Program-made: the position numbers and the translations under genes
NCBI GenBank assembly: GCA_019915015.1
Contig: JAHBBC010000010.1
Coordinates: 558,001-622,000, forward strand
Direction: 5' to 3'
From: Auriscalpium vulgare
Taxonomy: Eukaryota > Basidiomycota > Agaricomycetes > Russulales > Auriscalpiaceae
Length of the DNA stretch: 64,000 nucleotides
In this document: piece after piece, positions 32,758 to 53,177 of the stretch
Layout: the number at the start of each line of letters is the position of its first letter
Position numbering within the stretch: the first letter of the stretch is position 1
The notes under the pieces: model-generated
Told to the model about the DNA's origin: nothing
Databases searched by the model: none
What the model saw: only the letters and a program-made list of their open reading frames with translations

Positions 32758-33241
32758 TGTTGGAATTTGGTGATGACGCTAGTCTCATGACAAATACTAT
32801 GGAATGATCTAGAACGATCTGGACTTGTTTGATCATGGAACATTGTAGAATAGTCTAGAATAGCTACTGTACAGGATTGCTATACGCTTACTCAGGTCTT
32901 AACTCCTATCTCCTAGGATGACTGATGTACTTACTGATGCTGTGCAAGCTGACTGATTCTTACACATTATGTCTTACACATATGCTTTATGCTTACTACA
33001 CAATTTCTGATTGGTTGATATGCAGAGCCCCAAGTAGTATAAAAGGGCTCCTTTCTTCGCTCAGATACCTCAGTCTTTTCACATCACAGACTGAGGTGAG
33101 CATTCCTATGCATACTTAGGAGTCTTCTCTTTACTAACTCACTTGTAGTATAGACTAACGTCTCTCTAAGGTACTGCAATATAGTCTTTTCACATCACAG
33201 ACTGAGTATAGACTAACGTCTCTCTAAGTTGTGTTTCATCA
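32758..33241 (+). repeat. Copia-2 5' LTR with core promoter
   Basis: 484 bp, TGTTGG...CATCA. A TATAAAAG at 33038-33045 is preceded by a reverse CCAAT-type ATTGGTT (about 33010). Downstream, AGTCTTTTCACATCACAG...GAG occurs twice (33072-33095 and 33183-33206), as does TATAGACTAACGTCTCTCT (about 33149 and 33207), an internal duplication probably in the R/U5 part. Confidence 0.9.
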
Positions 33242-33257
33242 GGTTATGGGCCCTGCC
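33242..33257 (+). other. Copia-2 primer binding site (half-tRNA-iMet type)
   Basis: GGTTATGGGCCCTGCC directly follows the LTR. It is the same site as in Copia-1 and complementary to the anticodon arm of initiator tRNA-Met. Confidence 0.7.
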
Positions 33258-33935
33258 TGAACACCTGCTACAAGAAGTTACTTTGCTTTTTATCAAGGCG
33301 AGTCTACCATCATCTTCCCACTCGCGCCCTATCTTGGAGCTCTTCATTGAGCTGCCATTGTGCTCTCGCCCCTTTGGGGTTACGCGAGCGCTGATGACGG
33401 AGGCATGGCGATGCCAGAAGTCAGCGTGAGCCCTTCTGCCCTGTCCCTCTGTGCGCATACTGTACAATTACCTACCCTGGTGTAGACCACAACTGTGTCG
33501 AACCAGAAGAGTCCACTACGGGCTTAGGGGAACCTGGGGAAGCCTGGGGGAACCATAGGTCCACTGAACTGTTGGCTGTCTGTCCCTTAAGTGGGAAGCA
33601 GTTTTGGTGTCCCAATCCTGAGGGCGGTAGTCAATCCACCCAGGAGCACCTGTTACAACTGCAGTGCGCTACTATAAGTACTTAGATTTGTGGAGCCCAA
33701 CCATCTAGGCTTTAATTAGGATCCGGAGGTGTACCTTGGTGCATTCTCGTTTCATCCTAACCACAAATTTGCGTACAAATACTGTAATTGTACTGTATAT
33801 GCGCACATGGACATGGGCAGGACAGGACCTTAGGGTTCTGGCTTAGAGATACAGCACATAGGGTTGACGTCGTCTTGAACTTCTTAAAGAATCTGGGTCT
33901 GACTGCTCCTCAAACCCAGATCATTCGCTCTTCAC

Positions 33936-36900
33936 ATGTCTGGAGAATTACTTCCCAAAGGATTTACCATCCTAGCTGGAAACAGCAACTATGCCCTTTG
34001 GCAAGATGATATGATGGCCTTTCTTAAAGTCAAGAAGCTCTGGAGGTACACCAGTGGCTCCAAGCCATCTCCCAAAGCTGCAGATCCAGACAATCCTACT
34101 GCAACTGAGGTGGAGGCAGAGGCAGTATGGGATGAAGAAGATGATGTGGCGCTTGGATACATTAAAGCATCCCTGGCACCAGCCTTGAAGAACAAAGTGG
34201 GCAACGATGACCACTCTTCTGATGCCTGGAAATTTCTCAAAACATCCTATTCCAAACCCGGCACTCGCACCATCTTCACCCAATTTGACCTCTACCTTTC
34301 CACCCGTCTCATCGATACCAAACCTCTTGGACCTCAGATCAATGACTTTGATCAGCAGTATGAGAATCTCAAGAAGAATGGCATAACTGTTACACCCATC
34401 CAACACGCGTACTTCCTCCTCAAGGCCCTCCCAGATTCCTACAAGGCATTTAGGGATCTTACCCTTGATTCCTTCAGTGACCTTAAAACTGCCACTCCTG
34501 CTGAGATCACTACTCGCATCCTTGGCAAAGAGGCTAGCATAAAGGCAGACTCCACCATCGCTGCCACTGTTAATTCTGCGGCTGCCAAAGCCAAAGGAAA
34601 GCAGAAGGTGGAGAAGGGCAAGTGCAAGTACTGTCACAAGAAGGGTCACTGGGAGGCCAATTGTCGCAAGAAACAGGCTGATGAAGCTGGCGACAAGAAG
34701 AAGGGAGGGGACAGTAGTGGCGGCGGCGGAGGTAGTAGTAAACCCTCTGTAAATGCTCTAATTGTTGAGGCCTCGTCCTCCAATGAAGTCGCTGTTGCCT
34801 GGTACCTCTCGCCTGATAAGAATCGCTGGATGCTTGACAGTGGTTGCTCTCACCATATTACACATACACGTACAGACTTTGCCCAGTACACGCCCCTAGA
34901 AAAACCTGGACATATTGCCGTTGGTGATAGTACTGCCCAGGCTATGCACTTCTATGGGACGGGCACTGTCAATGCGTGGACAGATGTGGATGGGAAGCGT
35001 GTTGCGGTCACGCTTAAGAATGTGCTTTTTGCACCTAAAGCCGCTCATCGATACATATCGGTGACTACACTGTTGAACCAGAAGTTTGATGTGCTTCTAC
35101 GTGGTTCTACAGGAGTGTGTACAATAGAACGCGCTGGCATAACCTATGGTATTGGCCAAAAGCACGATCAGTTTTATTGGTTGGAGCTTACGCCTAAACC
35201 TGCGGTTCATGAGGCGACGGTTAAAGATGCGGTCTCGGTTGACATTGCTCATGGACGCTTTGCTCATATGTCACATGGCGCCCTGAAACGACTTACTTCT
35301 GAAGTTGTCAAAGGGATTGTCATAGACCATGCTACAGTGGCTACTAAACCCTGTCATGGATGTGAGCTTGGCAAGAGCACTCGCCAGACCTACCCTAGTT
35401 CAGATAAGCATGCCACCAGGGTTCTTGGCAAAATCCATTCGGATCTAGTCGGACCTATGCGTGTGCAGTCTATCCAAGGATTCACATATATTGCGACATT
35501 CCTCGACGACTTCAGTAACAAAGGAGTTGCTATGTTCCTCAAGCGAAAGTCAGATTTTCTCCTGGCATTTGAGACATTCCTGGCCAGAGCTGAGAAGGAA
35601 ACTAGTGTCAAGCTAGTGATCTTTCACTCTGATCGAGGAGGGGAATATATAAATACTATCTTGGATAAACGCTTTAAAGAACTGGGTATCACGCATCATA
35701 AAACCATGCCTTACACGCCACAACAGAACGGACGTGCGGAGCGCTGGAATCGTACCATCATGGAGAAAGCCCTGTCTATGCTTCATCATGCAGGCTTGTC
35801 TCTTGGGTTCTGGCAATGCGCGGTTGAGACTGCTGTTCATGTCTACAATCGCACTCCCACCCGTACGTTGAAATGGAAGACGCCAATGGAGGTATGGAGT
35901 GCTGGTCACATTCCTGACGTTGCGTACTTTCGCGTTTTCGGCTGCAAAGCCTACGTGCACATTCAGAAGGAACATCGTCATAAATTGGAACCTAATGCCA
36001 AAGAAATGACGTTTGTGGGTTACGAGGATGGTTCAAAAGGTTACCGTTTCTGGAATCCTGCCACCCGGTCCATTGTGTTGTCTGGCGAAGCAACATTTGA
36101 TGAGACTTCCTTCATTTCGAGACCAACCCAGAAAGCGCCCCCAAGCGCTCCTGATCCTCCTACTCAACACCTAAGTCTCTCTGATTTAATCAATGATGAG
36201 GACTTCACTCCTGAACGGAGGCCTGTGCCCGCTCCTCCAGTTAACGCAGCTGGAGATGACTCGGATCCAGATGAGGATCCAGCACCCAAAGTAGAGAAAG
36301 ACGATTCTAAGGTTAAAACACCACCTGCTACACCACCACCATCACGACCACATACGCCTCCACCTCCTGCTCCACCTCGCACACCACCTCGTCGCGCAAC
36401 CAATGCTAGAGTTGATAATGAAGCGCTTAGGCATAGAGTCCCACCGTTAGAAGAATCTCCACCTATCGCTGAAGCAGTGACACCACCAGCGCGTCCACGA
36501 CGTGCAAATGCTGGTCAAAGAGCTGCAAGGCTCGGCGATCAGTATGATGGCTTAACTGCACTTCAAGTTGAACAGCTGGATCTTCGACGGCGATTGCCTG
36601 ATACACAAGGACTTGTGCGTCAGCTGGACTTTGAAGCTCCTAATCTCCACGCTCTGTTAGATCTCATGGTTGGTCACGATCCCAAAACCTACACAGAGGC
36701 TATGGCATCGCGAGATTTTTCCAAATGGTGGGAGGCGTGTCGGTATGAATTGGACCAGCTGAATAAGCTTGGTACTTGGGAACTGGTGGACAGACCAAAG
36801 AATAGAAAAGTCATTAAAAATCGTTGGGTGTTTAAGCTCAAGTCCAATGGCGTTTATCGTGCACGACTTGTAGCAAAGGGATTTACACAGGTTGAAGGGG

Positions 36901-38225
36901 TCGATTACACGGAAACTTTCAGTCCAGTCGCCCGCTTTGAAACTATACGTTTCCTTCTTGCGTTGGCCGCGCTTGAAGATTGGGAAATTCATGGTATGGA
37001 CGTCAAGTCGGCGTTCTTACATGGCGAACTGGATGAAGAGATCTTCATGGAGCAACCAGAAGGTTTCCTGATCCCAGGGTTAGAGGACAAGGTAGTTCGA
37101 TTGCTGAAGGCTATCTACGGCTTGAAGCAGGCGTCCAGAGTATGGAACGTACAAATCGATGCTCTCTTGAAGGAAATTGGATTCACCAGGACCTATTCGG
37201 ATACTGGTGTCTATGTCTATCGGCGACAGGAGGGGAACACAGTTACCATTTTGGTGCTGTATGTCGACGATATGGCTATCATGGGCAATTCGCTCCCAGA
37301 GATCACTCGAATCAAAGCCTTGCTTAAGACTCGATATGAGATGTCAGACTTAGGGGAGTTGAAAGAATTCCTTGGCATACGTATCACAAGAGATAGGCGC
37401 AAAAGGACATTGACAATCGACCAGAAGACATATCTGGAAGAAGTCCTTGATAGATTTGGGATGAAGGACGCGAACCCTGCTCGAACCCCTCTACCTGCGG
37501 GCTGTGTTTTGATAGCGTCTACTGAAGAAGTGGACAATGCACGTCGGAGTTATTACCAGTCGCTTATTGGCAGTATGATGTACTTTGCCATTGGCACTCG
37601 TCCAGACGCGGCATATGCTATTGCACGCCTAGCACAGTACAGTGCGAATCCCACTGAAATGCATCTGAAGATGGCGAAGTATGTCTTGCGGTATATCAAA
37701 GGCACCCTTGACTACAAGCTTGTCTACAATGGCTTATCAGAGGAAGCTCAACTGCTTTCATACACGGACTCTGACCATGCTGAGAATAGAGACGATAGGA
37801 CTTCCATTTCAGCCTTTGTTGTTAAACTGGCTGGAGGAGCTATTTCCTGGATGTCGCGGAAGCAAGCTACTACTTCCCAATCCACAGCTCAATCGGAATA
37901 CATCTCTATGGCGGAGGCTGCAAAGCAGTTGCAGTGGTACTACAACTTGTACTCTGAGCTTGGACTACCGGATCCCACTCCTATCGACATGCGATGCGAT
38001 AATCGCGCTGCTATTCTTACGGCAGAAAATCCCATGGTTGGTAGGAACATGAAGCATGTAGAGGTTAAATACCACTTCATCCGGGAGTGCGTGGCAAAGG
38101 GACTTGTTCGCCTTGTACCAACCCCATCGGCTGAGAACGTCTCTGATGCTTTGACCAAGTCATTGCCTTATGAGCTACTTACTCGGTTCAGTGGGAGCAT
38201 GGGTTTGACTCGTCGCAAGGACTAG
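33936..38225 (+). CDS. Copia-2 Gag-Pol polyprotein (1,429 aa)
   Basis: One open frame from MSGELLPKGFTILAGNSNY. Order with approximate residues: Gag (UBN2-like, 1-215), CCHC knuckle CKYCHKKGHWEANC (229), protease WMLDSGCSHH (300), pre-integrase zinc region with CHGCELGKS (about 470), integrase with HSDLVG (500), HSDRGGEY (564) and NGRAERWNRTIMEK (600), a Pro-rich linker (about 730-860), RT with ARLVAKGFTQ, FHGMDVKSAFLHGEL-type motif and YVDD (about 1108), and RNase H ending SDALTKSLP. The order protease-integrase-RT-RNase H defines Ty1/Copia. Gag-Pol is a single frame, as is usual for Copia. No defects were seen. Confidence 0.95.
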   Translation: MSGELLPKGFTILAGNSNYALWQDDMMAFLKVKKLWRYTSGSKPSPKAADPDNPTATEVEAEAVWDEEDDVALGYIKASLAPALKNKVGNDDHSSDAWKFLKTSYSKPGTRTIFTQFDLYLSTRLIDTKPLGPQINDFDQQYENLKKNGITVTPIQHAYFLLKALPDSYKAFRDLTLDSFSDLKTATPAEITTRILGKEASIKADSTIAATVNSAAAKAKGKQKVEKGKCKYCHKKGHWEANCRKKQADEAGDKKKGGDSSGGGGGSSKPSVNALIVEASSSNEVAVAWYLSPDKNRWMLDSGCSHHITHTRTDFAQYTPLEKPGHIAVGDSTAQAMHFYGTGTVNAWTDVDGKRVAVTLKNVLFAPKAAHRYISVTTLLNQKFDVLLRGSTGVCTIERAGITYGIGQKHDQFYWLELTPKPAVHEATVKDAVSVDIAHGRFAHMSHGALKRLTSEVVKGIVIDHATVATKPCHGCELGKSTRQTYPSSDKHATRVLGKIHSDLVGPMRVQSIQGFTYIATFLDDFSNKGVAMFLKRKSDFLLAFETFLARAEKETSVKLVIFHSDRGGEYINTILDKRFKELGITHHKTMPYTPQQNGRAERWNRTIMEKALSMLHHAGLSLGFWQCAVETAVHVYNRTPTRTLKWKTPMEVWSAGHIPDVAYFRVFGCKAYVHIQKEHRHKLEPNAKEMTFVGYEDGSKGYRFWNPATRSIVLSGEATFDETSFISRPTQKAPPSAPDPPTQHLSLSDLINDEDFTPERRPVPAPPVNAAGDDSDPDEDPAPKVEKDDSKVKTPPATPPPSRPHTPPPPAPPRTPPRRATNARVDNEALRHRVPPLEESPPIAEAVTPPARPRRANAGQRAARLGDQYDGLTALQVEQLDLRRRLPDTQGLVRQLDFEAPNLHALLDLMVGHDPKTYTEAMASRDFSKWWEACRYELDQLNKLGTWELVDRPKNRKVIKNRWVFKLKSNGVYRARLVAKGFTQVEGVDYTETFSPVARFETIRFLLALAALEDWEIHGMDVKSAFLHGELDEEIFMEQPEGFLIPGLEDKVVRLLKAIYGLKQASRVWNVQIDALLKEIGFTRTYSDTGVYVYRRQEGNTVTILVLYVDDMAIMGNSLPEITRIKALLKTRYEMSDLGELKEFLGIRITRDRRKRTLTIDQKTYLEEVLDRFGMKDANPARTPLPAGCVLIASTEEVDNARRSYYQSLIGSMMYFAIGTRPDAAYAIARLAQYSANPTEMHLKMAKYVLRYIKGTLDYKLVYNGLSEEAQLLSYTDSDHAENRDDRTSISAFVVKLAGGAISWMSRKQATTSQSTAQSEYISMAEAAKQLQWYYNLYSELGLPDPTPIDMRCDNRAAILTAENPMVGRNMKHVEVKYHFIRECVAKGLVRLVPTPSAENVSDALTKSLPYELLTRFSGSMGLTRRKD

Positions 38226-38261
38226 TGCTTGTCACTATTCGACTAGCCCATCAAGTGGGAG

Positions 38262-38745
38262 TGTTGGAATTTGGTGATGACGCTAGTCTCATGACAAATA
38301 CTATGGAATGATCTAGAACGATCTGGACTTGTTTGATCATGGAACATTGTAGAATAGTCTAGAATAGCTACTGTACAGGATTGCTATACGCTTACTCAGG
38401 TCTTAACTCCTATCTCCTAGGATGACTGATGTACTTACTGATGCTGTGCAAGCTGACTGATTCTTACACATTATGTCTTACACATATGCTTTATGCTTAC
38501 TACACAATTTCTGATTGGTTGATATGCAGAGCCCCAAGTAGTATAAAAGGGCTCCTTTCTTCGCTCAGATACCTCAGTCTTTTCACATCACAGACTGAGG
38601 TGAGCATTCCTATGCATACTTAGGAGTCTTCTCTTTACTAACTCACTTGTAGTATAGACTAACGTCTCTCTAAGGTACTGCAATATAGTCTTTTCACATC
38701 ACAGACTGAGTATAGACTAACGTCTCTCTAAGTTGTGTTTCATCA
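38262..38745 (+). repeat. Copia-2 3' LTR
   Basis: 484 bp, apparently identical to the 5' LTR, including the internal duplication. Confidence 0.9.
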
Positions 38746-38801
38746 AGTCGGCGTTCCAAACGCTGCCAGTTCGATTCTCGCTCTGGTAATATTTTGACCG
38801 C

Positions 38802-39650
38802 TGATGAGATGAACCCTGGGGGAGGCCCCGGGAACGTCGATAGAAATGGAGGGAGCGAGCAGCCAACCGCTGGCCCAAGAGGTAGTGGGTCGGAGGAAGA
38901 AACCCAAGATCGCGACCGTGCCCCGAACAAACCACCCAGGACCCCGCGGGTCCTGCCCTCGTCCTGCGGCCCTCTCTCTCTCTCTCTCTCCGCTCCCGTC
39001 CGACCGTCGCACGTTGCGTCTCTTCCCACACTACTCGGTGCGACCCTCCCGTCTGTCGCCGCCGGTCCGTCCTAGTTGCGGAGTCGCCTTTGCCGTCCGA
39101 CCGTCCGACCTGTGTCCCCGCGCTTGTACCGTCCGAGCCGCTATCCTGGGATATAAACGTCAGTCATAAAACCTACCACACTGTATCACTCCAGTCTGTG
39201 GTTGAGTCGGGGCAGCGTAGCCCGTGGTATCGCAAAGGTGGCGCGACCCGGATGTCGCTACGGCTTCCTGGTTTAAGGCATCGTGTCGGGCTGGTCTGGC
39301 GGTGTCGCGTCGTGCGGTGCTCTCTGTGAAGCAGGAACGAAAGGTGTAGTCTCGGGTGTAGGCCCAAGGTCCAAAAGTGTCCCTACAACAAGTCGAATCG
39401 CGTCTATATACCGCTGCTTCGTCAGCTCTTCCCACGCGTCTGCGCTCCTACGCGTCCTACCAAGTTCCGCGCCCGACCGTTCCGACTCCCTACCTCGGCT
39501 CTCCGTCTCCTCCCCGGACGCTCGCTTGCTTTGTGCTGTCCCGTGGTCGTGCCGGTGCCGCGACGCCTGTGGGGCGTCTCGGGGGTGTGTGTCTTGGTGT
39601 AGCGGTGTGATTGGTCCGTTTCGGTGCCTGTAGCGCTGCGGGTCCCATCA
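38802..39650 (-). repeat. Gypsy element 3' LTR
   Basis: 849 bp, apparently identical to 52319-53167. On the plus strand it lies 145 bp upstream of antisense gene A, so it could supply that gene's promoter (plus-sense GATATAAACG at about 39148 and CTATATACC at about 39404). Confidence 0.9.
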
Positions 39651-39688
39651 TCCTCCCCCCAACTGAGCTACCGACTGCCCTCAGTCGG
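39651..39688 (-). promoter_or_regulatory. PPT-hairpin motif 1 (next to the 3' LTR)
   Basis: In element sense a 7-bp stem CCGACTG/CAGTCGG with loop AGGG (39688-39671) is followed by TAGCTCAGTTGGGGGGAGGA, ending directly at the LTR edge. The purine tract is the expected second-strand primer site of the element. Confidence 0.75.
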
Positions 39689-39795
39689 CGAATCCCCGGA
39701 TGGCTCCTCCTGATAAAGGCTCCCTCGCGCCGTCTCGATGAGTCGTCAGGTAGCGTCGCACCGCCCGCCCGACCAACCCCCCCCCACACACCATC

Positions 39796-41023
39796 ATGAC
39801 CTGGTCTCCCCACACGTACCGTCGCGGTACTCTCTTGCTGTACCACCTGGGTCGGGCCCCCAGCGCGGACTTCCCGCTCGCAGCAGCCGCCGAAGCGATC
39901 GAACAGCGCGAGCGTTGGGCACAGGAGGTGTTGGCTGTCATCGTACGGTTCCCCTCTTTTCCGCCCCGTTGTCGCGCTAACCGTCCGCTCCCATCGGCTG
40001 TAGGAATCCATCACCGATTCCGACCCCAGGCTGATCATCCCCCTCGCCGAGCGCATCCTCATGCCGATACTCGAGAACGCCATCCTCCTCGTACCCGAGG
40101 TCGAGGATCGCTTCCGCTCGTGGGCGGGGCGCTTTCTTCGTCCCGCCCCGCTCCCTACGACCGAGCTGCACCCGTGGACCTCCGTTGTTGATCGGGTCGA
40201 CCTACTTGACGCCCCCAAGGTTCGGCTGACCGCGACGCTGGTTGAGGAGAACTTTTGGGTCGTGTTTCGCAAACGCGGGTGCTCGGTCGCGTCGTACTTG
40301 CGCGAGCTCGCCATTTTCCATGCCGCCATCCCCGATGACCGTCCCCTGGGCAACCAGACGTGGGTCGCGTACGTCCTCCGAGAGGCCTTGGAATGTTCCG
40401 CGCTCTCCATTCGCCACTCGCGTGGTGGGACCGCTTTCCTTCCCGACTACGTCGCCCGCGAGTCGACCGCTTGGCCCATTTCGCCCCCCACGCAGTACGG
40501 TCGCAACCTCGGCGGACTGGGTGCGCGTCTTTTAGCTCGTTTCGAGGCCGTGTACCGCGAGACCGTCGAGGAGCTCGCTGGGGCTACGGAGAACGTCGCC
40601 AATCTGCAAGCCCTTTGGGCCGACGCTCCCTACCTGTTAGCCATCGTTCGCGACCCCTGCCTCTCCCTCGAGCACGCAACCCGACTCTTCCTGGAGTACG
40701 CAGTGACTGCGGCATACGTTCTGCGCCATTTCCCAGCCGCCCCGACCGAGCCCGACCTTTACACGAACAACCTCTTGGTGACCTTTGTGCGCCATCGTGT
40801 ATTGTCGGGGCTCCCCGCCTTGCCCGCCGGTGATGGTGTCGGCTTGGTTGACGACGATGCCGGCGGTGTCGATTCCGACGAGCAGATGCAGGGCGATCCC
40901 GTGGACGCCGGGGGTGTCGGGGATAATGTCGCTGTGATGGAGCGTGTGGTGGTCGGCGATGTCGGCGCGATAGTGGATTACCGCAGCGATAGTGATAGCG
41001 ACGTCGCGAGCAGTCGCGAGTAG
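39796..41023 (+). CDS. Antisense accessory gene A of the gypsy element (388 aa, two exons)
   Basis: Exon 1 is 39796-39942 (49 codons, MTWSPHTYRRG...), the intron 39943-40003 (GTACGG...CTGTAG, branch-like GCTAAC), and exon 2 is 40004-41023. The protein is helical-looking with no recognised domain and an Asp/Ser-rich C-terminus (DYRSDSDSDVASSRE). It aligns without gaps in exon 1 to gene B, sharing RE-x-W-x3-V just before the intron; after the intron both have a P...P...P...F..W.G...L pattern. It lies on the strand opposite gag-pol, 145 bp from the 3' LTR and just after a PPT/hairpin motif. No homologue was recognised; it might be a captured host gene or an element-specific protein. Confidence 0.7.
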
Positions 41024-41445
41024 TGTACCCCTTCTGTAAATGGTCTCTCCGGCCGCCATGAATCGCACAGAACTGTGGCCCCTGATGTCTCATAGCAATG
41101 ATCGTCGCGTTTCGCTGCGTGGGCGACTCATAGCGTCGCGCGGTCTCCGACCGTGTTCTGATGGATCGCGGATTCGGTTGCGCGTGGTCGGCTCTGACTT
41201 TGTCTTGTCCCGCTCCCTTCTGGCTACTTGCTCCTCGTGCACCCTGCGCAGGCTGGTCACCCGTCGCCGAGAAAATCCCTATCTTTCTCCTCGTCGCTCG
41301 TGACTGGCCATCCTCCCCCCAACTGAAATCTGCGCCTGTCCTCAGACGCAAATTCTCCGGCCAAACCCCGGCATATCGGGTCGCGGCGGGTTTCCGACGG
41401 CCTACATAACGAGTGCGGTCGGTGCGTGCGACCCAGCCTCCGACC
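41024..41445. other. Spacer between accessory genes A and B
   Basis: Presumably the 3' flank of A and promoter of B; it contains PPT-hairpin motif 2. No other coding pattern. Confidence 0.5.
41311..41350 (-). promoter_or_regulatory. PPT-hairpin motif 2 (between genes A and B)
   Basis: In element sense stem TGCGTCTG/CAGGCGCA (one U-G wobble) with loop AGGA is followed by TTTCAGTTGGGGGGAGGA. Same architecture as motifs 1 and 3. It could act as an internal polypurine tract. Confidence 0.7.
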
Positions 41446-42627
41446 ATGTCGTCCAGTTTCACCCTTGAGGCGCGTGCTTTCGCCCTTGTCGGGCTACTCC
41501 TCACTCCGCCCGCGATTGACCTGGAGACCGCTCCCGTCGAGACCCTGGTTCTGGCTCGGGAGGAGTGGGGTCGCAAGGTTGCTACGCTCTACGTAAGTCC
41601 TCGCGCTGTCGTTGCGATCCCCGCTCACGTCCGTGTCGCGCTTATCCAGAATGAAGTGTATAACACTGCGAAGCCATCCGTCCTTCGTCTTGTCCAGGCA
41701 ATTGTCAGCCCCGTCTTCGAGACGCTGTTCACTGTGTCCCCCGAGTCGCGCGCCGCGTTTGCTGAATGGGGTGGTAACCTCATCAGCGACCTCGCGCCTC
41801 CGACGTCCGCTCCTCTCGACCCGACATTTTCGGTTCGCCCGATCGCTGGATTCACCTTCCCGAACAATCGCGACCACTCTCGCCAGCTCTCGCGCCTCTG
41901 CGAGGGCGCCCTGTGGGCCGCATTTGAGTCGGGCCGCACGTCCGTTCCCCAGTACCGTCGCAGCCTTGGTGAGCTCTGCTTGGCCGCTCATCCCACCGGT
42001 CGCGGAGCGGGCATCGACGCGACAGTCCACGCGGAGTTCATTGCCGGCATGAATGCTTGCGCTTCGGCTCTTCAGCGCCTGAACGGCGGGGAAGAGGCCC
42101 TCCTGTCCGAGGTCCATCGCCTCTCCTACTCGACCACCGGCATATCCCTCCCCGACCTCCTGCGTACCCTCGCGCACCCTCTGTCCGATACGCTCATTAC
42201 CCACACCACCGAGACCGTGGCGACCTTGGCGTCGATCTACGGCACCATCGCGCAACTTGCGCGACCCGACGACCGCCGCGCGCGTGGTCGCTGGGGTCCG
42301 TATGCCGACGCCTTTGACTCTGCGGATGGGTTCTTGGAGGCCGCCGCTGCCGCGTATCTGCGCGACGCCTTGCAGTGGTCCACCACTATCGACAGTCTTC
42401 ATGCGCGCACCGCCATTGAGAGCGCTATCCTCGCGTCGAACCTCCCCACCGAGTTATTGGCCGACGTCCACAGCGACCCGACGATGTTCTTGGACGAGGT
42501 CGTGACGTTCCGCGCAGTCCCGATGGGTTGGCAAAACGCGCACCGTGGTCGTCGAGGCGGGGGTGCGACTCGGGGGCGCCTCACTCAGCAGGGGCGTATC
42601 CCGCGTGACGATCCTACCACGCTGTAG
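41446..42627 (+). CDS. Antisense accessory gene B of the gypsy element (paralogue of A)
   Basis: ATG at 41446 (context CCGACCATGTC). Exon 1 is 41446-41592, again exactly 49 codons, followed by a consensus donor GTAAGT. The acceptor is ATCCAG, and the intron 41593-41649 is 57 bp, in frame and without stops, so retained forms would also be translatable (393 aa unspliced, 374 spliced). The region after the intron matches gene A in pattern (VSPVFETLFTVSP, FAEWGG, LAPPTSAPLDPTFSV against ILMPILENAILLVP, RSWAGR, PLPTTELHPWTSV). The end is basic (RGRRGGGATRGR). Function unknown. It lies 135 bp downstream of the second PPT/hairpin motif. Confidence 0.7.
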   Translation: MSSSFTLEARAFALVGLLLTPPAIDLETAPVETLVLAREEWGRKVATLYVSPRAVVAIPAHVRVALIQNEVYNTAKPSVLRLVQAIVSPVFETLFTVSPESRAAFAEWGGNLISDLAPPTSAPLDPTFSVRPIAGFTFPNNRDHSRQLSRLCEGALWAAFESGRTSVPQYRRSLGELCLAAHPTGRGAGIDATVHAEFIAGMNACASALQRLNGGEEALLSEVHRLSYSTTGISLPDLLRTLAHPLSDTLITHTTETVATLASIYGTIAQLARPDDRRARGRWGPYADAFDSADGFLEAAAAAYLRDALQWSTTIDSLHARTAIESAILASNLPTELLADVHSDPTMFLDEVVTFRAVPMGWQNAHRGRRGGGATRGRLTQQGRIPRDDPTTL

Positions 42628-43115
42628 CGTCGTCGCGCTGTCGGAGCGTCGGGAGATAAAGGGAAAGAAAGAGCCCGCGTTAGTGTAGTGCCTTGTGCCC
42701 GCATGTACGTCGTTGAATGCCTCCCAATACGAGTATTGAACTTGCGACGCGTTACCCGCTTGTGCGACGCCAGTGTACCGTGGTCGCGCCCCGTGGGAGG
42801 GGCGGGCGCCAACGACTTGTGCCATTTCGCTCGTGCCAGCGACACGTGCCCGCCACGCGGCGTCGGAGCCGCGCGTGGCGTCCCGCACCGGTCCGGGGAA
42901 CGTCGCGGGATCAAATCAACGATCGCTGATCAGATCGCGGATCGACCCGGCATCGTGGGCGCTCGGAGGCAAACCGGCGCTCTGGCCGGGCCACGCGGCC
43001 GGTCGCTCCCACGCACGCGCCATTGTTCGTGCGCCTGCGGCGAAGTCGCCGTCGCCCTTCTTCCCTCTCCCCCCTCTCACTCGCTCCCTCACCCGCCCCC
43101 TCGATTCCTCTTGCC
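42628..43115. other. Spacer between accessory genes B and C
   Basis: Probably the promoter of gene C. It is pyrimidine-rich just before its ATG (CCCTCTCCCCCCTCTCACTC, about 43065). No convincing frame. Confidence 0.45.
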
Positions 43116-45121
43116 ATGGACACTGCTTCCCTCGCCGACACCACCGCCACGCGTACCATGCTGGAGACCCAGCTGGGCCTACTCGAGGCCATGGCGCGCG
43201 ACGCCACCGCCGAGGCGCAGCTCGTCTTGTTGCGGCCGCAAGTCCGCCAACTCCTGGTGCGCCCGCTCTGTTTTGCCTGCAAGGATCGCTCTGACCTGTT
43301 CCCCGCTTGTGCCGTCCCAGCGTTCATACTACGACGCCCGCGATCGCGGTGTGGTGTTCCCTGCTGCGGTGCGCGCGCGGTACGACGCTCTCGACGACGC
43401 CGTGCGACCGCCGACCGCGCCCCGCGATGACGGAGACGACGAGGACGAGGAGGTCGCCCCCGCTGCTGTCCCCCCGACCGCCCCCAGCGGCGCCGTCCAG
43501 ACGGGCGCGCCCGCAGTGGAGGCCTCTCCAGCTCCTCGTCGTCGCCCCAAGGTGCGTCGCTGGCGCTCGGCCTCCTTCTCTGCTAACCTTCCTTTTGCAG
43601 GCTCGTCGGGTGCCTGCCAACCGCGCGGAGGTTGTGCTACCCCGCGTCGCTCCGCCCCCGCCTCCTCCTTCTGCACGGAGCGAGCGTCATGCTGCGCGCA
43701 GCGCCCCGTCGACCGCGCCGCCCTCGTCGAAGCGTGTTGGCAAGCGCCGTGCTTCCCGGTCCCCCGTGCCCACACCTCCTCCTCGTGCACCGTCCCGTTC
43801 GCGCTCCGCCCGTGGTCGCTCCGCCAAAAGGGGCCGACCTACCCCGGCGTCGGTCGCCTCCAGCCCGTCTCGCCCCCGCTCCCCGTCGTCCTCGCCGACC
43901 GCCGGCCTTGACGACTCGCTGTCGGAGGCGGTCGATGAAGATGGCGACCCGATGTTCCACGCGTCGGACCGTCGCCCCACGAACACGGAGCGCTACGCCG
44001 GTGAACGTCTCAAGGTGAGTCGCACCATGTGCCACGGTGTCCGTCCTTACTCACGCCTCCCCGGTTGTAGACTGCCACCCGTTGCGCCCGCTGCGAGCAC
44101 CACTTCAAGCGTGGGCCAAAACGCTGCGAATTCAAGCCGCACTTGCCGTCCAAGTGCATACGCTGCCGTGCGCAGCGGAAGTCCTGTACCGGCGCCGTGC
44201 TCGCGGACGGCACGCGACCACGCGCTCCTCCTCCTCGTGCCAACCGCGGACGCGCTGGCCGCTCGCGTGCCGCTTCCCGCGGCCCTCGGTCCCGTTCGGC
44301 TCTTCGCGCCGCCACGGTGTCTTCCACCGCCCGCTTGCTCGAGGAGTTGCTCGCGTCCGCCGACTCGATGGGTAGGTTTCCCCACTCGTCCCACCTGCCT
44401 ACTGCTAACTTCCCTTGTCTCTTCCACAGATCCCCCGCGACGTGCTCGCGAGCTGCTGGCCGAGGTTCTGTCGTCTGTCGACGCGGACATCGGCCGGTTC
44501 GAATCGCTCACCGCTGCCGATCGCTTCCCCGACAACGCCGACTCCATCGCCCTCGTCCAGGCGGATCTGGACGCCAGTCGGACGACCCTCCTGCTATGGC
44601 CCTACCGCCACGACCGCCTTCTCCTGCGCTGGGCGCAGCTCACCCATCGGTACGGCGCGCGGGACACTTCCGACGTTCCGGGCTCCGACGTCGCCCCTTC
44701 CCCTTCTCCTCCCGGTTCCCCTGTCGCCGGCCCCAGCGGCCTCCACGCCCCCGACTCGCCCGCCCTCGCGACGATCCCACCCAGCTCCGTCGCGGCTTCA
44801 ACGTCGGGCGACCCTGCCGACTCTGGCGAGGAAGAAGACGAGCTCGACACTGCCGTCAAGTCGCCGGAGCCCGACGATGACGAGGAGGACGACAGGGACT
44901 CCGCCGTTGGCAGCCCCCGCCCTGCTGGGCCATCGGGTAGTGCGATCGAGGAGGACGAGGAGAACGAGGTGGACGAAGCGGGTCCTAAGGCGGCCGACCC
45001 GGACGACGACGCGGATGAAGAGGGCGCCCCGGCGGCTGGCGAGGACGACGAAGATGACGAGGACGAGGAGGGTAGTGACGCGGCCGCGGAGGAGGTCGCC
45101 GACATGGACGTCGACGAGTAA
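43116..45121 (+). CDS. Antisense accessory gene C: Zn-cluster-like, acidic-tailed protein (592 aa, five exons)
   Basis: Exons: 43116-43256, 43321-43551, 43601-44014, 44071-44371, 44430-45121; all GT-AG, all phases agree, and introns 2 and 4 contain GCTAAC. Exon 3 is Ser/Pro/Arg-rich with KRVGKRRASRS (possible nuclear signal). Exon 4 starts with six Cys in C-x2-C-x10-C-x9-C-x2-C-x6-C with basic residues between, resembling a fungal Zn2Cys6 DNA-binding cluster but with a longer first loop. The last exon ends in a long Asp/Glu-rich tail (EDDEDDEDEEGSD). The layout suggests a nuclear DNA-binding regulator; that is inference. An AATAAA stands at about 45257. It is followed by the third PPT/hairpin and the pol 3' end. 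Confidence 0.7.
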
Positions 45122-45370
45122 GTTACGGTTTTCCGCCTTTCTCGTGCCGCTCCTGTACTATACGTGTACCATATTCGCTCCGGTCTCGTTCTTTCTCGTG
45201 TATTCTGGTTAATTTCTTGACTCTCGTGTTCTGTATGCTTGTACGTGCTCGCCGAAAATAAAGTTTCAGTGTTCCCCCACCACAAAGGGAGAAAGAAAAT
45301 AAGTTAAACCTGTAATCTCAGTGTACTGTCCGTGGTGTATCTCCTTAGCGTGTTACCATATCTAATCGCG

Positions 45371-45405
45371 TCCTCCCCCCGACTGAAACTGCTGACCCCA
45401 GCAGT
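45371..45405 (-). promoter_or_regulatory. PPT-hairpin motif 3 (just after the pol stop)
   Basis: In element sense stem ACTGCTG/CAGCAGT with loop GGGT, 14 nt after the pol stop codon, is followed by TTTCAGTCGGGGGGAGGA. It marks the boundary between pol and the accessory region. Confidence 0.7.
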
Positions 45406-45418
45406 CGTATAGGGCCTG

Positions 45419-48400
45419 TCAGGCGACACTGCCGTCTTCCGCGCTGTTGCTCGCGGTGTCCGACGCGTCGCTGTCTATGCTGCGTGATTCCTGTGCTTGG
45501 GCGTCGGGGTCAAGCTGTCCGAGAAGCTCGTTTAGTCGTCGGGCGGGTATGTCGATGAACTCCGGTAGCGGAGGAAGCGTGATGTGTGGTCGCGCGAAGT
45601 ACGGAATGACGCGAAACTCCGCAGTGGGCCTGTCAAAGACCGCCCCGTGCATATCGCACAGGACGTACGGTCCACCACGTCGCCGCCCAATTACGATGAA
45701 CGGACCGTCGTAGCGAGGCAGCATCTTGCGGTCGAGTGATTTCTCGAACTGCGTGAAACGTACCAGGACAAGGTCGCCTCGTTGGAAGCCGTAGTTCTTG
45801 ATCGACGCTTCGTGGTCGCGCTCGAAAATCAGCGCATCCTGCCGCCGCTTGTCGAACACTTTCGAGTGGAGCGTACGAAGCTGGGTGCGGCGCTTCTGAA
45901 GTGCGACAGCCCGTCGCGCGATTAAATCCGTCGTCGACAGTATCGAGTCGGGCGGTGGTAGGAGATACGTTGCTTCTACGATATCGAGGGGCATCAATGC
46001 CTGCGTGCCGGTCGCCGCGAAGTAGGGGGAGCAGCCCATACGCCTGCGCGTTGTGATCCTGTCCGCCCAGAATACCGAGTGTGCGACCGTGGCCCACTTG
46101 CTCGCGTCACCGTCGGCGGCCTTGTACAGGGCCTGTCGGACGTCGAAATGCGATCGCTCTACGATTCCGTTGGATCGCGAGTTATAGCCTGAGATGCGGA
46201 TGTGCTGCACGCCGTAATCTTCTTCGAGGTGCTTCATCGCTGCTAGGTACGGCGTCCCGTTATCCGTTACGATTTCCCGGAGCGCTCCCCAGCGACAGAG
46301 TACGTCCTCGAATATCCATCGCGCGAGCGACTTGGCATTTTCCTGTCGCAGCATGCGCCACTCTGGGAAATGCGAGACCGAGCACCTTCCTTGTACGATG
46401 TATTTGAAACCTCGAGAAGCCGGCATGTGCATGGTATCAGCGTACATCTTGGCGAACAGCGGCGCCGGGGTCGCGACCGTTGGGGGAATGAGCACGTGCT
46501 TGACCTGTCGCACTTGGCAAATATGGCATGATCGTACAAACCATGCGACGTCGCGATCCATGTACGGCCACCAGAAGCGTTCGAGGAGAAACATCTTGGT
46601 CGGGTACGCGCCGCGATGTCCGACATCGTCGTGACAGGCCTTCAGAGCCCCTATGCGGCGTTCCGGGGGTAGGACAAGTTGGTGGCGGCCCTGCGGCTCC
46701 TTGCGAAAGAGACTCGTGCCGTCAAGGAAGAACTCGGTGCAGTACCGCAGGAACGTCGCGTACTCTTGGTCGGAAAAGCCATCCGGCCGCTGGAGCGTGT
46801 TGTGCCATTCCCGAACTCGCCCAATTCGTTCGTCGGCTTGCTGCGCCTTGATGTCGCGGTCGACGGCGTCGTAAGACATCTCCGTCGGGGCGGCCTGGGT
46901 GACGAACGTCGCGATCGCGGCCCTTGGGTGGTCGCGTGGGTCCCCCGACCGTGGCCTTGTACTGCGCGGTACGTATGCGTTCACGAGGTGAATGAATCCA
47001 TACATCGCGTCGACCCAGTCCTCGAACCCGTCGTGCTCGTTTTCTGCCACGTCGCCCGGTTGGCGCCTTCGTCGTGACATTCCGTCAGGCCCATGAAACA
47101 GGCCGGGCACGTGAACGAGGACGAAATGGAACATTAGAATGGCGATGATCCACCTATTCATGCTGGCCGAGGGTTCAATATCAGGGTTGTCGAGCATGCC
47201 CTTAATGTAGCGTGCGTCGACTTCCACGACCATGTTCCGCACTCCGATGAGATATATCTTCAGCGCGCGGAGCGCCCGAAACAGGCCGTATAATTCTAAC
47301 TTTGGTTGCGAAAAACGCGCCTCGCGATCGTTCAACGCGATGGACCCAAACCGTGCGTACCGACGCTTCTTGCGACTCTTCGGATCGTCGGCGTCAGCCT
47401 GGCACAGCAAGAACCTGACCGCAATAGGAGATGTATCGACCGCGAGGATAACCGGTTCGCCCGACTGATAGTCGATCGGTTTCAGGGCTGGCGACTCCAG
47501 CAACGCGCTTTTGAGATCTTCCATAGCTGCTAATTGTTCCGCTCCGAATTCGAATGGCACATCTTTCCTCGTAAGGTGCGTGAGCGCATGCGCGCGATGT
47601 GCGAAATGGTGGATGAAGATCCTCAGCACCCCGACCGTCCCGAGGAACGCCCGCACATCGGACAGGTCTTGACATGGCCCCCAATTCACAATCTTAGCCA
47701 CCCGTTGTTCGTCGGGGATCCGCCCGTCCCTCGTGCAGCGGTGTCCGACCACGACAATTTCGGGCGCGCACAAAATAGTCTTCCAACCCGAAAACGTCCC
47801 GCCCGAATAACCCATGCGCTGTACGACGCGGTTGAGATTCTGAAAGTGTTCCCAGACAAATCGGCGGATGCCCTCGTTGTCAGCGATTGTCTCGTACTTC
47901 CCCTGGTCGTCCTTGTATTCGCTCGCGGGGCCCTTGACCGGTACGTCATCAATAAACGGTATCGTGACGTGAGGAATTTCCGGCCTCAGGATATGTGTGA
48001 CGTCGTCGTGGAAGATAGGCACTGAATTCGTCCAGCCCATCGGTAGTGTTACCAACCGCAGCGCGCCGTAAGGGGTCTGGAACGTAGTGAGGTCGCGCGA
48101 CGCTGGGTCCAACGCTCGCTCGTCGTATCCGACGTACAGATCCAGCATCGCGCCGCAAGCCCGACCCGCGAATTGCTCGGCCAGTTGGTCGGTAAACGGG
48201 GGCACCCCGGAATGAGCTATCGTGACGGCGTTTAACGGCTCCAGGCTGTGCACTATGCGCAGGCTCGTTCCATCCTTTTTGACCACGCAGAACCACCGCG
48301 ACCTATACGACGAATTGGATGGTTCGTAGACGTTCGCGGCCAACTTCCGACTGATTTGTTCCATGACTTGGTCGTAGATTCCCGGCGGGATCGGTATGTT

Positions 48401-49078
48401 GCGTTGTACCCATGGCGTGTGCGGTACGACGGGTATCGTGACCGGCGGAAAGAAATCTTCGCGGAAGTGGCCTCGCTCGCTGTCGTCCCACGCGAACGCA
48501 CCGTTGTGCTCGCACATAAAATGGTGCATCAGCTTGCGTTCCTCCTTCCACAAGAAGTCCCCCTCGTGAACTACGTCGAATTGGTCGCGGCGCTCCTCGG
48601 TGTAACGCCCCGTCGGCCGGAAGTCAGGGGGCTTCGTCGGTAACTTGGGTAGTGTCGCTAGCGGGTCGCCTCGTATGTCGCGTATGATTCTGAACTGCCC
48701 AGGCAAGTCGGCTAGTACTGGCTTCACTTTTAGGTGGGCTGGCTTATACTTTTTCTTGGTCGCTGCGAAAACTGCGCGTGCCCGCGCGCTGCTTGGCAGC
48801 GACTTACAGTCGCGAAATTCCTGTTCGCCTGCGAACGATGGCACCCCGGCTGGGGCGAGAAAGAAAACGGGCGCCGATGGAACGTCTAAAGTCGCGTCGG
48901 TCGGCCGATCAAATATTGGAGGGGTAGACTCTGGGAGATCGCAAAATGATAAATAGGTTGCTCGTAACTCTTCCGGCGAACTAGAGGAGTCGAAGGGGAC
49001 CACGGCTTCCACGGAAATAGGATCGGCGGCGTCGCCCGTGAACTCGAGGACGAGCGCCACTTCCGCCTGGTCGTCCAA
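45419..49078 (-). CDS. Gypsy Pol: RT, RNase H, integrase (about 1,219 aa)
   Basis: RT motifs (residues counted from 49078): RWFCVVKKDGTSLRIVHS (261-278), AMLDLYVGYDE (310), FQTPYGALRLVTLPMGW (333-349) and catalytic FIDD (375-378). RNase H: VILAVDTSPIAVRF, QPKLELYGLFRAL, VEVDARYIKGM. Integrase: HDDVGHRGAYP with CHICQVRQ (zinc HHCC), then the catalytic triad in ADTMHMP, IVTDNGTPY and SNGIVERSHF, then a GPF-type motif YDGPFIVIG; no chromodomain was seen. There is no ATG near the start: the frame is open from 49207 but its first possible start codon is TTG at 49078. So it is most likely made as a Gag-Pol fusion by -1 frameshifting. Confidence 0.92.
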   Translation of the reverse strand: MDDQAEVALVLEFTGDAADPISVEAVVPFDSSSSPEELRATYLSFCDLPESTPPIFDRPTDATLDVPSAPVFFLAPAGVPSFAGEQEFRDCKSLPSSARARAVFAATKKKYKPAHLKVKPVLADLPGQFRIIRDIRGDPLATLPKLPTKPPDFRPTGRYTEERRDQFDVVHEGDFLWKEERKLMHHFMCEHNGAFAWDDSERGHFREDFFPPVTIPVVPHTPWVQRNIPIPPGIYDQVMEQISRKLAANVYEPSNSSYRSRWFCVVKKDGTSLRIVHSLEPLNAVTIAHSGVPPFTDQLAEQFAGRACGAMLDLYVGYDERALDPASRDLTTFQTPYGALRLVTLPMGWTNSVPIFHDDVTHILRPEIPHVTIPFIDDVPVKGPASEYKDDQGKYETIADNEGIRRFVWEHFQNLNRVVQRMGYSGGTFSGWKTILCAPEIVVVGHRCTRDGRIPDEQRVAKIVNWGPCQDLSDVRAFLGTVGVLRIFIHHFAHRAHALTHLTRKDVPFEFGAEQLAAMEDLKSALLESPALKPIDYQSGEPVILAVDTSPIAVRFLLCQADADDPKSRKKRRYARFGSIALNDREARFSQPKLELYGLFRALRALKIYLIGVRNMVVEVDARYIKGMLDNPDIEPSASMNRWIIAILMFHFVLVHVPGLFHGPDGMSRRRRQPGDVAENEHDGFEDWVDAMYGFIHLVNAYVPRSTRPRSGDPRDHPRAAIATFVTQAAPTEMSYDAVDRDIKAQQADERIGRVREWHNTLQRPDGFSDQEYATFLRYCTEFFLDGTSLFRKEPQGRHQLVLPPERRIGALKACHDDVGHRGAYPTKMFLLERFWWPYMDRDVAWFVRSCHICQVRQVKHVLIPPTVATPAPLFAKMYADTMHMPASRGFKYIVQGRCSVSHFPEWRMLRQENAKSLARWIFEDVLCRWGALREIVTDNGTPYLAAMKHLEEDYGVQHIRISGYNSRSNGIVERSHFDVRQALYKAADGDASKWATVAHSVFWADRITTRRRMGCSPYFAATGTQALMPLDIVEATYLLPPPDSILSTTDLIARRAVALQKRRTQLRTLHSKVFDKRRQDALIFERDHEASIKNYGFQRGDLVLVRFTQFEKSLDRKMLPRYDGPFIVIGRRRGGPYVLCDMHGAVFDRPTAEFRVIPYFARPHITLPPLPEFIDIPARRLNELLGQLDPDAQAQESRSIDSDASDTASNSAEDGSVA

Positions 49079-49086
49079 CGACGCCT

Positions 49087-49207
49087 CTAGAGCCGAAAAT
49101 CCCTGCGCTCGCCGGCGCTCTGAACGATGCGACGCGAGCCTCGCTCTACTGTCGGGACGGTCGCCGTCGCTTGAGTGTTGGGATCGGTGATCGTGATGGT
49201 CTGTCGC
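49087..49207 (-). promoter_or_regulatory. Gag/Pol overlap with probable -1 frameshift site
   Basis: The pol frame (-1 relative to gag) is open from after a TGA at 49210-49208 through the gag stop at 49089-49087, a 121-nt overlap. The gag codons GAT TTT CGG (49101-49093) contain T4 (49099-49096), on which a Phe-tRNA can slip back by one and continue into pol just before the gag stop. No canonical X XXY YYZ heptamer was found, so the exact site is a guess. Confidence 0.55.
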
Positions 49208-52200
49208 TCATCGACAAAGTTGCGGACTATACTCCCAGTGAGGACGTCGAAGGGCCTCCCTAGCAGGATGTCGTAGGCCGGAGAACGTATGACGTGTATC
49301 TGTACGTAGAGCGTGATGTCGCCTAGCTTTAGCGCTACGTTGCGGGCTAGCCCGAGGGATTTGTCAATCGAGCCGTTGGCGGAAAGCATGTCCAGTGTGA
49401 TCGCGGGATCATATGCCAGGCCGAGAAAATGACAAACGTCTTCGGACATGGAGATGACCTGCGACCCTGGATCCAGGATAGCCTCAATGTGCGCTTGGTT
49501 ATCCACCAAGGGCAGGACCGCTCGCAATGCCGATGACTCTTTTGCGACCACCAGCGGGGCCGGTTTCTCGGCCGAGGCACTCATCAACGTCAGCATCGGG
49601 TCGGAGAGCACCAGCGACCCGCGAGGCGGCACCGCTGGCTGGCTCTGTATGGCCTGCAAGAACGACGACGGCATGTGCGAGGTGTATCCCCGCGCTCGAT
49701 CTCTCTCCTGCTCGCGCTCTTCCTCGTACAAGTCGCCGGGTAGGTCCGACCACTCCTTGGTAGGCCCTTCCCCTTCCGCTACGACCGTGTGTAGGACCGC
49801 TACTGGGGAGTCCCCGCTGGACAGTACCGGGGCCGCTATGCGTCGCGGGGTGATAGCGTATCGCAACTGGGAACGTACTTCTGGCGCCAGCGACAGTAAC
49901 TCGCTCTGTGTCAGAGTGACGGAAGTCTCCATCGCGCGGCCGTAGACTTCCTTCGCGACTTCCTCACTATGGATGGGCGTGTCCTTGGTATAGGCGGCGA
50001 CTGGTTTCTTCCCTTTGTCTGGTCGGGACGCGTCCCCGACGGGTATGTAGGTTGCGTCGGGTACGGAGGCGAAAGGATGGATGGGTTCCGGCTCTATCTC
50101 CTCGGGGTCCTTCTCGACTGTCGGCTCACCCTCGCTCTCTTCCCTCGCCGCTTCCGCATCCTCTGGACCCTCGGGCACCGCGAACGTAACCTTCGGCCGC
50201 TTTGCCGTGAATTTCGACGGAGATATGACCACCTCAGGGACTAGCCTCTTGGATCGCACTCTCTCCCCGGGCAGCGGACCGATTGGTGGCGGTAACTCTC
50301 CGTTGCGAATCGCTGCCTCCCTTCGGGCCCGGCCGGCGTTCCTCTGCTCCTTCATGAGGGTTAATACCGCCATCTCTTGACGCAACTCCTCGAGTCGCTC
50401 GTCGTCCGTCAACGGCGGGATTAACTGGATGAGCCCGGCGACCGGCTGGTCGCGCGCAGGTCGGAGCGGGTAGTCGGTGACGGCGATGGGACCTGTCGAT
50501 GCCAACATCATTGTTTCCGTCGCGTTGCCCGCGACTCTGGCCGCGACGTCGGCGCGCAGCCCGGACGGGTCCGTGCGATAATATTCGTCTACCCTCGCTT
50601 GAATCGGGCCTAGCCCAAATGGCACTGGCCTGCCGCTCTTGAGTACCACCTGGTTCATCTCGTTGCGTACCACCCGCCCCGTCGCTATGTAGTCTTGCAG
50701 GACGAGGCATTCGCGGATGAAGTGCTCGGGACCGTTGCAGAACGAGCACCTGGCGCCATCCTGTCCCGGGGCCGGGCGAGGACGATCGAAACGAGCGGCC
50801 GACGCCATCATCGGGCCCGGTGGCCCGCGCGTGTACGCCGACGGCTGCGGGCCTGCGTTACTCATCCCCATCGCATCGGCTCTCCCCGCGCTATACGCTT
50901 TCGCGATCTGCTCGGCCGCCTTCTCCATCAGAGCGGCAAACTGCTCGACCTTGATCGCAGGTTCTTCCGCCTTGACGGCCACGGGTTGGGACAAGTCGGC
51001 CAGACCCGCGGGGACGCTGAGCCCTGCCGATCGCGGGGTGCTCGACGTGCCGTGCAGCACGTACCGCGCCGCTTCCACTATTTGGTCCATCGGGTACGGG
51101 CCGTCGCGATCGTGGTCGGGATACTTCAGCTGCAGCCGCTGCTCTATCCTATCTTGCAGTCCCTTCTGAAATCCACGCAAGAAAGTGTAGTCGCGGTCGC
51201 GCTCGGAGATACGCTGCCGCCCTATAAGAAACTGGGAGATCGCGTAGAAACCGCGATAGTATTCCCCAACGTCGCCAATGGTCGTGACGCCTCGGCGGGC
51301 TGTCTCGGCGACGAGCTGATCGAGGTCGCCCATCGTGTATTTGCGCTCCTCGTCCGCTCCGGGGTATAGCGCTATGATCGCGGTCACGAACTCTTCGAAC
51401 GTCGCATTGCCCGCGTACTGGGGTCGGCTTTGCCACTGGTCTGCTGTAAGGACGTCCAGGTATCGCGTGGCGTGCTCCTTCTTCTCCTGGTCCTGGCCGT
51501 CCTCGATACCCGCCCGCGTGAACAAGTGCCTCAACTCCGCGAAATAGCGTTGCAGCTCGCGCGGCTTAAGATTGTCGAACTTAGGGGCTTGGCGGTCGCC
51601 ACGGGTAGGCATCGGAGTGGCCATGGTCGTGCGACGGGGTAAACGCGATAACGGAGTACTGGATTGCGATGTGGGAGAAACTGGTCGGGAAACCTGTGCG
51701 GCCGCTCCACGCCCGTCTCCTGATAAACCTCCGTGCGTTCCGACGTTTCCGCGGTCGGAAGCCAAGCGGTCGCTGTCGGAAGGCACCTGTGCCTCGTCTC
51801 GGTCCTCATCAATCAGCGCAGCCACTTCGGGCTCCGATTCCGACGGGGTAAGCTCCGGCGACGACCATTGTCGCATCGCTCCGCCAGTCAGCAACTCGAT
51901 CGACGCCTCATTGACGTCCAGGAGCTCCTGATGGAGGGACCGTCTACCATCCCAACCGTGCTCCGACTCCTCCGATTGGACAGGGCCTGCCTCCGCGTTT
52001 TGATCGCCGGGAGCCTCGCCCGCAGCATCCCCGTCGTTCTCGGGTGCTGCGTCCGACACACCCGATGCCTCGCCGTCGTCGTTTTCGTTGTCGCCCTCGG
52101 CGCCTTCAGCGCTGGAAGTCGCGCGCTCTTCGTCCGACGCCCCACCTTCCGACGATGCGAGGTGTCCTGGCATGGACTCCGCCCGCTGACTGGTCGAGTA

Positions 52201-52269: not shown

Positions 52270-52296
52270 CGGGTTGCTGAGCGGTTGACACTAGCC

Positions 52297-52314
52297 CCCT
52301 CGCGGTGGGCTCCA
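52297..52314 (-). other. Candidate gypsy primer binding site
   Basis: In element sense TGGAGCCCACCGCGAGG starts 4 nt after the LTR. It begins with TGG, as expected for pairing to a tRNA CCA end. The tRNA was not identified. Confidence 0.45.
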
Positions 52315-52318
52315 CAAA

Positions 52319-53167: not shown

Positions 53168-53177
53168 CCGCATCCGC

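Follow-up and report, generated by a model that had tools for sequence, protein, structure and literature searches.

The 64-kb stretch of Auriscalpium vulgare DNA considered here (contig JAHBBC010000010.1, positions 558,001 to 622,000; hereafter the window) contains, at 38802-53167, a complete, full-length Ty3/gypsy long terminal repeat (LTR) retrotransposon in minus orientation. Between its pol open reading frame (ORF) and its 3' LTR lie three genes, A, B and C, which run antisense to gag and pol and have six predicted introns among them. Judging from sequence comparisons within this genome, we think it probable that the element is a recent, multi-copy one, whose three conserved antisense genes keep their predicted introns intact through reverse transcription. 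Its LTRs are paired and flanked by a target site duplication, as expected of Ty3/gypsy elements, and the domain order is theirs as well, with a protease in the gag ORF followed by reverse transcriptase (RVT_1), RNase H and the integrase zinc domain. In pol, RNase H and the integrase zinc domain exceed the Pfam cut-off, and the RVT_1 match is weak and lies under it (E 0.016). The interval 39651-45418 is exactly the gap between the pol stop and the 3' LTR (Table 1).

All six predicted introns of A, B and C are bordered by GT-AG. The intron of B is stop-free in frame, so that reading through it is possible; it is backed by the match with A, by a distant family in the same genome (locus L031, see below), and by a public protein, P0002, whose model has a splice junction at this place. 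Another public model, P0003 (FA95DRAFT_1578795, 595 amino acids, aa), spans all four C junctions as modelled, as compared by eye. Both are gene models independent of ours. The closest public proteins all come from Auriscalpium vulgare itself (Basidiomycota, Russulales), with identities of 95% (P0003), 96% (P0001) and 76% (P0002). By their sequences, A and B are paralogues: a one-sequence BLASTP comparison gives an E value of 4e-14, and in the alignment the two genes have the intron column and phase in common.

Table 1. Features of the retrotransposon and of its antisense genes, in window coordinates
Feature	Position	Strand	Remarks
Left target site duplication, CCGC	38798-38801	.	flank comparison
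3' LTR, 849 bp, TGATGAG...CCCATCA	38802-39650	-	identical to 5' LTR
Candidate antisense promoter	39152-39157	+	TATA word inside 3' LTR, facing gene A; inferred
Polypurine tract bordering 3' LTR	39651-39660	-	motif scan; TCCTCCCCCC on +
Gene A, 388 aa	39796-39942, 40004-41023	+	paralogue of B
A intron, 61 nt	39943-40003	+	predicted; GT-AG, phase 0
Polypurine-tract-like motif, internal, preceding B	41311-41320	-	motif scan; L031 counterpart at 3794
Gene B, 374 aa	41446-41592, 41650-42627	+	
B intron, 57 nt	41593-41649	+	predicted; GT-AG, phase 0, frame open
Swapped module around C	43051-45450	+	approximate extent; stepwise identity profiles of copies
Gene C, 592 aa, five exons	43116-43256, 43321-43551, 43601-44014, 44071-44371, 44430-45121	+	
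C intron 1, 64 nt	43257-43320	+	predicted; phase 0
C intron 2, 49 nt	43552-43600	+	predicted; phase 0
C intron 3, 56 nt	44015-44070	+	predicted; phase 0
Cys-rich segment of C	44083-44187	+	C-x2-C-x10-C-x9-C-x2-C-x6-C; six Cys invariant in 6 sequences
C intron 4, 58 nt	44372-44429	+	predicted; phase 1
Polypurine-tract-like motif, internal, between C and pol	45371-45380	-	motif scan; L031 counterpart at 7780
pol ORF	45419-49078	-	Pfam domain matches
gag ORF	49087-52269	-	ORF list and Pfam match; aspartyl protease close to C end
Putative primer-binding-site-like TGG... stretch	52297-52314	-	read by eye; 4 nt inside 5' LTR
5' LTR, 849 bp	52319-53167	-	identical to 3' LTR over all 849 bp
Right target site duplication, CCGC	53168-53171	.	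flank comparison

Conservation of the antisense genes and their predicted introns

A preliminary description of this locus had proposed a Ty3/gypsy element with an antisense, intron-bearing gene set and had asked whether further copies keep the same genes and introns. They do. A DNA search of the genome (51.6 Mb, 96 contigs) with window positions 41000-44000 gave at least 43 matches, and 22 further copies were read and aligned (L009-L030), which together with the window make a sample of 23 sequences. GT-AG borders are kept in 23/23 introns of A, 23/23 of B and 88/92 of C; the misses are intron 4 of L019 and introns 2-4 of L030, where C is truncated by a break. Frames are intact in 18 of the 23 sequences for A, 18 for B and 19 for C, and all three together in 15. 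Across four of the C types described below, intron interiors and fourfold sites are equally diverged (identity 0.43-0.57 and 0.45-0.57, respectively), and all 20 C introns in five types retain GT-AG and a CTNAY word at lengths of 49-71 nt. Retention of these signals amid diverged interiors fits the pattern expected from selection for splicing.

The same gene set recurs in a distant family, which a protein search of the genome with B disclosed at 33% identity in eight places. At its locus L031, the counterparts A', B' and C' share a strand opposite to that of pol, this pol being 78% identical to that of the window. The accessory proteins evolve faster than pol (nonsynonymous divergence, dN, 0.75-0.81 vs 0.17), with identities of 30% for A-A', 30% for B-B' and 37% for C-C'. 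L031 has six introns in total, located in the same alignment columns as in the window (one C intron is off by one column) and equal in phase (A 0, B 0, C 0-0-0-1). Because gene set, intron columns and phases are common to both, the set, the A/B duplication and the six introns are older than the split of the families. The preliminary description, whose conserved antisense gene set is thereby upheld, contained neither the A/B paralogy nor this distant family nor the apparent exchange of C reported below.

Since host genes typically have introns of the spliceosomal type, A, B and C could in principle be cargo from the host genome. We consider this highly improbable: a stand-alone host gene was recognised neither in database searches nor, among the matches inspected, in searches of the genome itself with B and C (for C, the part of the match list inspected did not extend to the weak C-only matches C7:1361444 and C4:418143), and the set is common to two families whose pol proteins differ as stated above. 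With no host source gene recognised among the inspected matches, A, B and C give the impression of long-standing components of the element.

Comparison of nonsynonymous with synonymous divergence (dN/dS), proposed in the preliminary description as a check, shows that selection on A, B and C is purifying wherever divergence suffices. The ratio is 0.069 for B between the window and L032 (dS 0.90), 0.066 for A' between L031 and L034 (dS 0.85), 0.25 for A between the window and L032 (dS 0.056), and 0.21-0.37 for C across types (dS 0.72-1.07); reference values among four elements are 0.04-0.24 for pol and 0.10-0.38 for gag. The values for C across types, and those at low divergence, come from nine chosen sequences (the window and 8 of the 22 copies), with intact frames only (A 8/9, B 6/9, C 6/9). 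Ratios at a dS under 0.02 are noise, as in A (0-0.87), B (up to 1.43) and C (0.77 within a single type, dS 0.014). Substitutions in B between the window and L032 number 36, 16 and 140 at codon positions 1, 2 and 3. In a six-frame control on four gene pairs, the gene frame alone is stop-free in both sequences and has the lowest dN/dS; the -2 frame mirrors it (0.19-0.41), yet has 4-8 stops.

The region is GC-rich and long minus-strand frames are also present, as would suit chance frames or a single accidental capture, but this explanation is refuted by the many copies, the several C types, the distant relative, the codon-position bias and the six-frame control, and we give it practically no credence. 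It might also be that the antisense RNA itself is functional, with plus-strand transcripts pairing with genomic RNA and feeding silencing, a role that the available part of one paper discusses for antisense transcripts of these elements (PMC7264820). A regulatory RNA requires neither frames nor introns, whereas here selection is purifying at the protein level, substitutions are biased by codon position and frames are kept; such a role is in our view highly improbable as the main explanation.

There remains the question of how introns persist in an element that replicates through RNA. A spliceosomal intron in sense orientation should disappear once its gene has gone through an RNA stage. In genomic RNA starting from the 5' LTR, A, B and C would be read in reverse; their introns would show CT...AC ends there and hence stay unspliced, so that every new copy would retain them. 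Plus-strand transcription of an integrated copy would yield spliced A, B and C mRNAs, that of A perhaps from the 3' LTR, where a TATA word at 39152 faces the gene, a pattern that 4 of the 7 other loci checked also have. Made from plus-strand mRNAs, the three products would have their expression kept apart from the genomic RNA. The retention of introns in readable copies agrees with this orientation argument, in a family without a sense-oriented control. By antisense placement the family appears to have held on to the six predicted introns of its three genes in the long term, and would thus parallel in nature the reporters with antisense introns that serve to measure retrotransposition. It may also be, as the preliminary description had it, a vehicle for a regulated accessory gene set.

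Apparent exchange of gene C on a uniform backbone

Gene C varies among copies in a manner of its own. Four copies with other C types (L014, L021, L022 and L028), compared with the window in 250-bp steps, are 96-100% identical to it in every step between the LTR and about 43050; identity then drops to 56-80% across C and recovers near the 3' end of pol. Exceptions to this simple pattern are L020, with a diverged LTR, L029 and L030, with a different B region, and the rearranged L019. The C sequences of the window and 21 copies (L030 omitted) form six clusters at 90% nucleotide identity, two of them single-copy; the cluster of L019 is that lone rearranged copy, nearest to the L012 type (0.82). 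At the amino-acid level, the window and L021 are 99.8% identical in gag, 99.7% in pol, 99.5% in A and 100% in B, and 70.9% in C, with dS at 0.013 in pol and 0.91 in C. For the window and L022, the corresponding values are 99.2, 98.8, 99.0, 99.5 and 59.0%; L021 and L022 are 57.6% identical in C, and C-C dS among these three elements is 0.9-1.1. L014 is less simple, with gag at 98.9%, pol at 94.4% over the part compared (as far as its first stop) and C at 71.1%. With gag, pol, A and B near-identical around it and its own sequence strongly different, C has the behaviour of a swapped cassette. The natural and likely explanation is that C modules would be traded within the near-identical flanks, either by template switching between co-packaged RNAs or by gene conversion.

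The 5' LTR was located for 7 of 8 copies tried, with 0-1 mismatch to its 3' partner over 783-856 sites (the pair of L009 has a 66-column gap); that of L020 was not found within the sequence stretch examined. These seven near-identical pairs are spread over four C types, and several C types have therefore been recently active. Locus L033 (C23:36800-42800) is an internal-deletion derivative with A 97.6% and the end of pol 99.2% identical to the window and only part of C; B was not found in that interval.

Six invariant Cys, basic stretches and an acidic tail suggest that the Cys-rich product of C may bind nucleic acids as a regulator, with a target either in the element itself or in the host; A and B may be helical partner proteins. 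Exon 4 of C has a weak Zn_ribbon_RanBP match in 4 of 6 sequences (best E 0.005). No Pfam zinc-cluster match was obtained for C at E up to 1, nor any for exon 4 at E up to 10. Zn2Cys6 (GAL4-type) clusters have the spacing C-x2-C-x6-C, then C-x2-C-x6..8-C; the segment of C agrees with it in the second half (x2, x6) and departs from it in the first (x10, or x9 in L031). Neither TRP28 (PF04195, at E up to 1) nor bZIP was matched in A, B or C.

An alternative is that A, B and C are replication helpers, serving the particle, nuclear import or DNA synthesis rather than regulation, and that their orientation merely separates their expression from that of gag-pol. Helpers of this kind would suit the retention of three intact frames in 15 of 23 sequences, constraint on B and A' equal to that on pol (dN/dS 0.07 vs 0.04-0.24) and the three polypurine motifs at the block borders, which may give the region a part in DNA synthesis as well. 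A partner of the particle or of the polymerase would not readily be expected to diverge and swap, as C does, while gag and pol stay near-identical, and the Cys-rich, basic and acidic composition of C is better suited to nucleic-acid binding. We therefore regard the helper role as unlikely and retain the reading of C as a nucleic-acid-binding regulator. A more speculative extension, to which we attach a low probability, is that C could be the identity cassette of the element, namely a fast-diversifying antisense regulator that moves together with its flanks between otherwise identical elements and sets mutual repression or tolerance among copies. Temperate phages, which exchange their immunity regions, provide the comparison. 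If this were true, antisense placement would make an intron-bearing regulatory layer compatible with an RNA life cycle. The difference of C on a uniform backbone raises a directly testable question: do retrotransposons possess exchangeable modules for self-recognition or for host escape?

Comparison with known antisense genes

Additional antisense ORFs in the space that separates pol from the 3' LTR form an established class; what seems new here is the multi-gene set with predicted introns and the apparent swap of C. Plant Ty3/gypsy elements with such ORFs include Grande (gene23), RIRE2, Retand (TRP28 ORFs) and PvRetro13 (PMC7264820, PMC11963269). According to the available parts of these papers, they are alike in location and orientation, in that most copies carry the ORFs, and in a suspected nuclear or DNA-binding role (PMC7264820, PMC11963269). 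The window differs by its three genes with six predicted introns, and the word "intron" is absent from the main text of PMC11963269. The same available parts do not describe the swapping of one gene (PMC7264820, PMC11963269). From the TRP28 ORFs of Retand the window differs in that A, B and C have no TRP28 match.

Among fungi, Boty of Botrytis cinerea reportedly has an antisense gene, brtn, to go by the title of Zhao 2011 (Virology 417:248). In the available text of PMC7264820, Boty is listed among gypsy elements with an antisense gene; it is likened to the window as a fungal gypsy element with an antisense gene, from that title and this citing mention alone. The preliminary description cited antisense ORFs from some plant gypsy elements; with Boty, an antisense gene was already on record for a fungal one too. 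Our literature search found no set of intron-bearing antisense genes for any LTR element and no antisense gene exchanged as a cassette. The available part of PMC7264820 explicitly calls for a search for antisense and spliced transcripts.

Further comparisons come from outside the gypsy elements. Human T-cell leukaemia viruses (HTLV) have antisense genes, HBZ in HTLV-1 and APH in HTLV-2/3/4, that encode regulators and have spliced transcripts from the 3' LTR (PMC10186651, available part). HTLV has one such gene, and HBZ is a bZIP protein, whereas the window has three genes with six predicted introns and no bZIP match. A nuclear group I intron of Didymium carries an antisense homing-endonuclease gene whose spliceosomal intron is spliced in vivo, and is thus likewise a mobile element with an antisense gene containing a spliceosomal intron (PMC9548176, available part); it differs in being a ribozyme intron, not an LTR element, with one gene and one 47-nt intron. 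In LTR elements of bdelloid rotifers, the available text describes modular exchange of accessory genes and a varied ORF3 (PMC5408684). There, unrelated ORF3 types are common to element classes, while the family in the window has versions of one gene on one backbone.

Polypurine motifs, target sites and neighbouring elements

The motif TCCTCCCCCC occurs at 39651 (the LTR edge), at 41311 (before B) and at 45371 (between C and pol), and CCTCCCCCC has four plus-strand occurrences in the window and none on the minus strand. Of the 11 other loci scanned, 7 bear a mark at each of the three places (L009, L014, L021, L022, L029, L031, L033); L020 and L034 have two motifs, and L030 and L032 one, some of them partial. 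In L031, polypurine-tract-like motifs stand at 2002, 3794 and 7780, the same borders being marked in two distant families. A short inverted repeat adjoins each motif and folds into a hairpin in many; for the window copy at 39651, the lowest-energy fold is a different pairing. The motifs may be either extra plus-strand primers or former ends of the internal region, left by stepwise addition of genes between polypurine tract and LTR.

The 4 bp at the outer LTR edge read N-CG-N in 17 of 17 readable sequences, 7 of the 24 scanned having no readable LTR edge; against a CpG background of 212 in 2362 flanking positions, the binomial probability is 1.6e-18. The pattern was also seen at the edges of L028, L031 and L034, and the two-sided target duplication matches in the window and in 6 of 7 copies, L009 being mismatched. 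By these sequences, the integrase of the element seems to insert at CpG. Ginger1 transposons, which have a gypsy-type integrase, duplicate CCGG or CCGT, according to the available part of PMC2836005.

Next to the gypsy insertion, at about 32760-38745, the window holds what by eye is a copia-like element with LTR-like repeats, including one intact gag-pol ORF of 1429 aa (33936-38225). Farther off, on the minus strand at 28058-31110, broken overlapping frames resemble, by eye, a decayed copia-like element.

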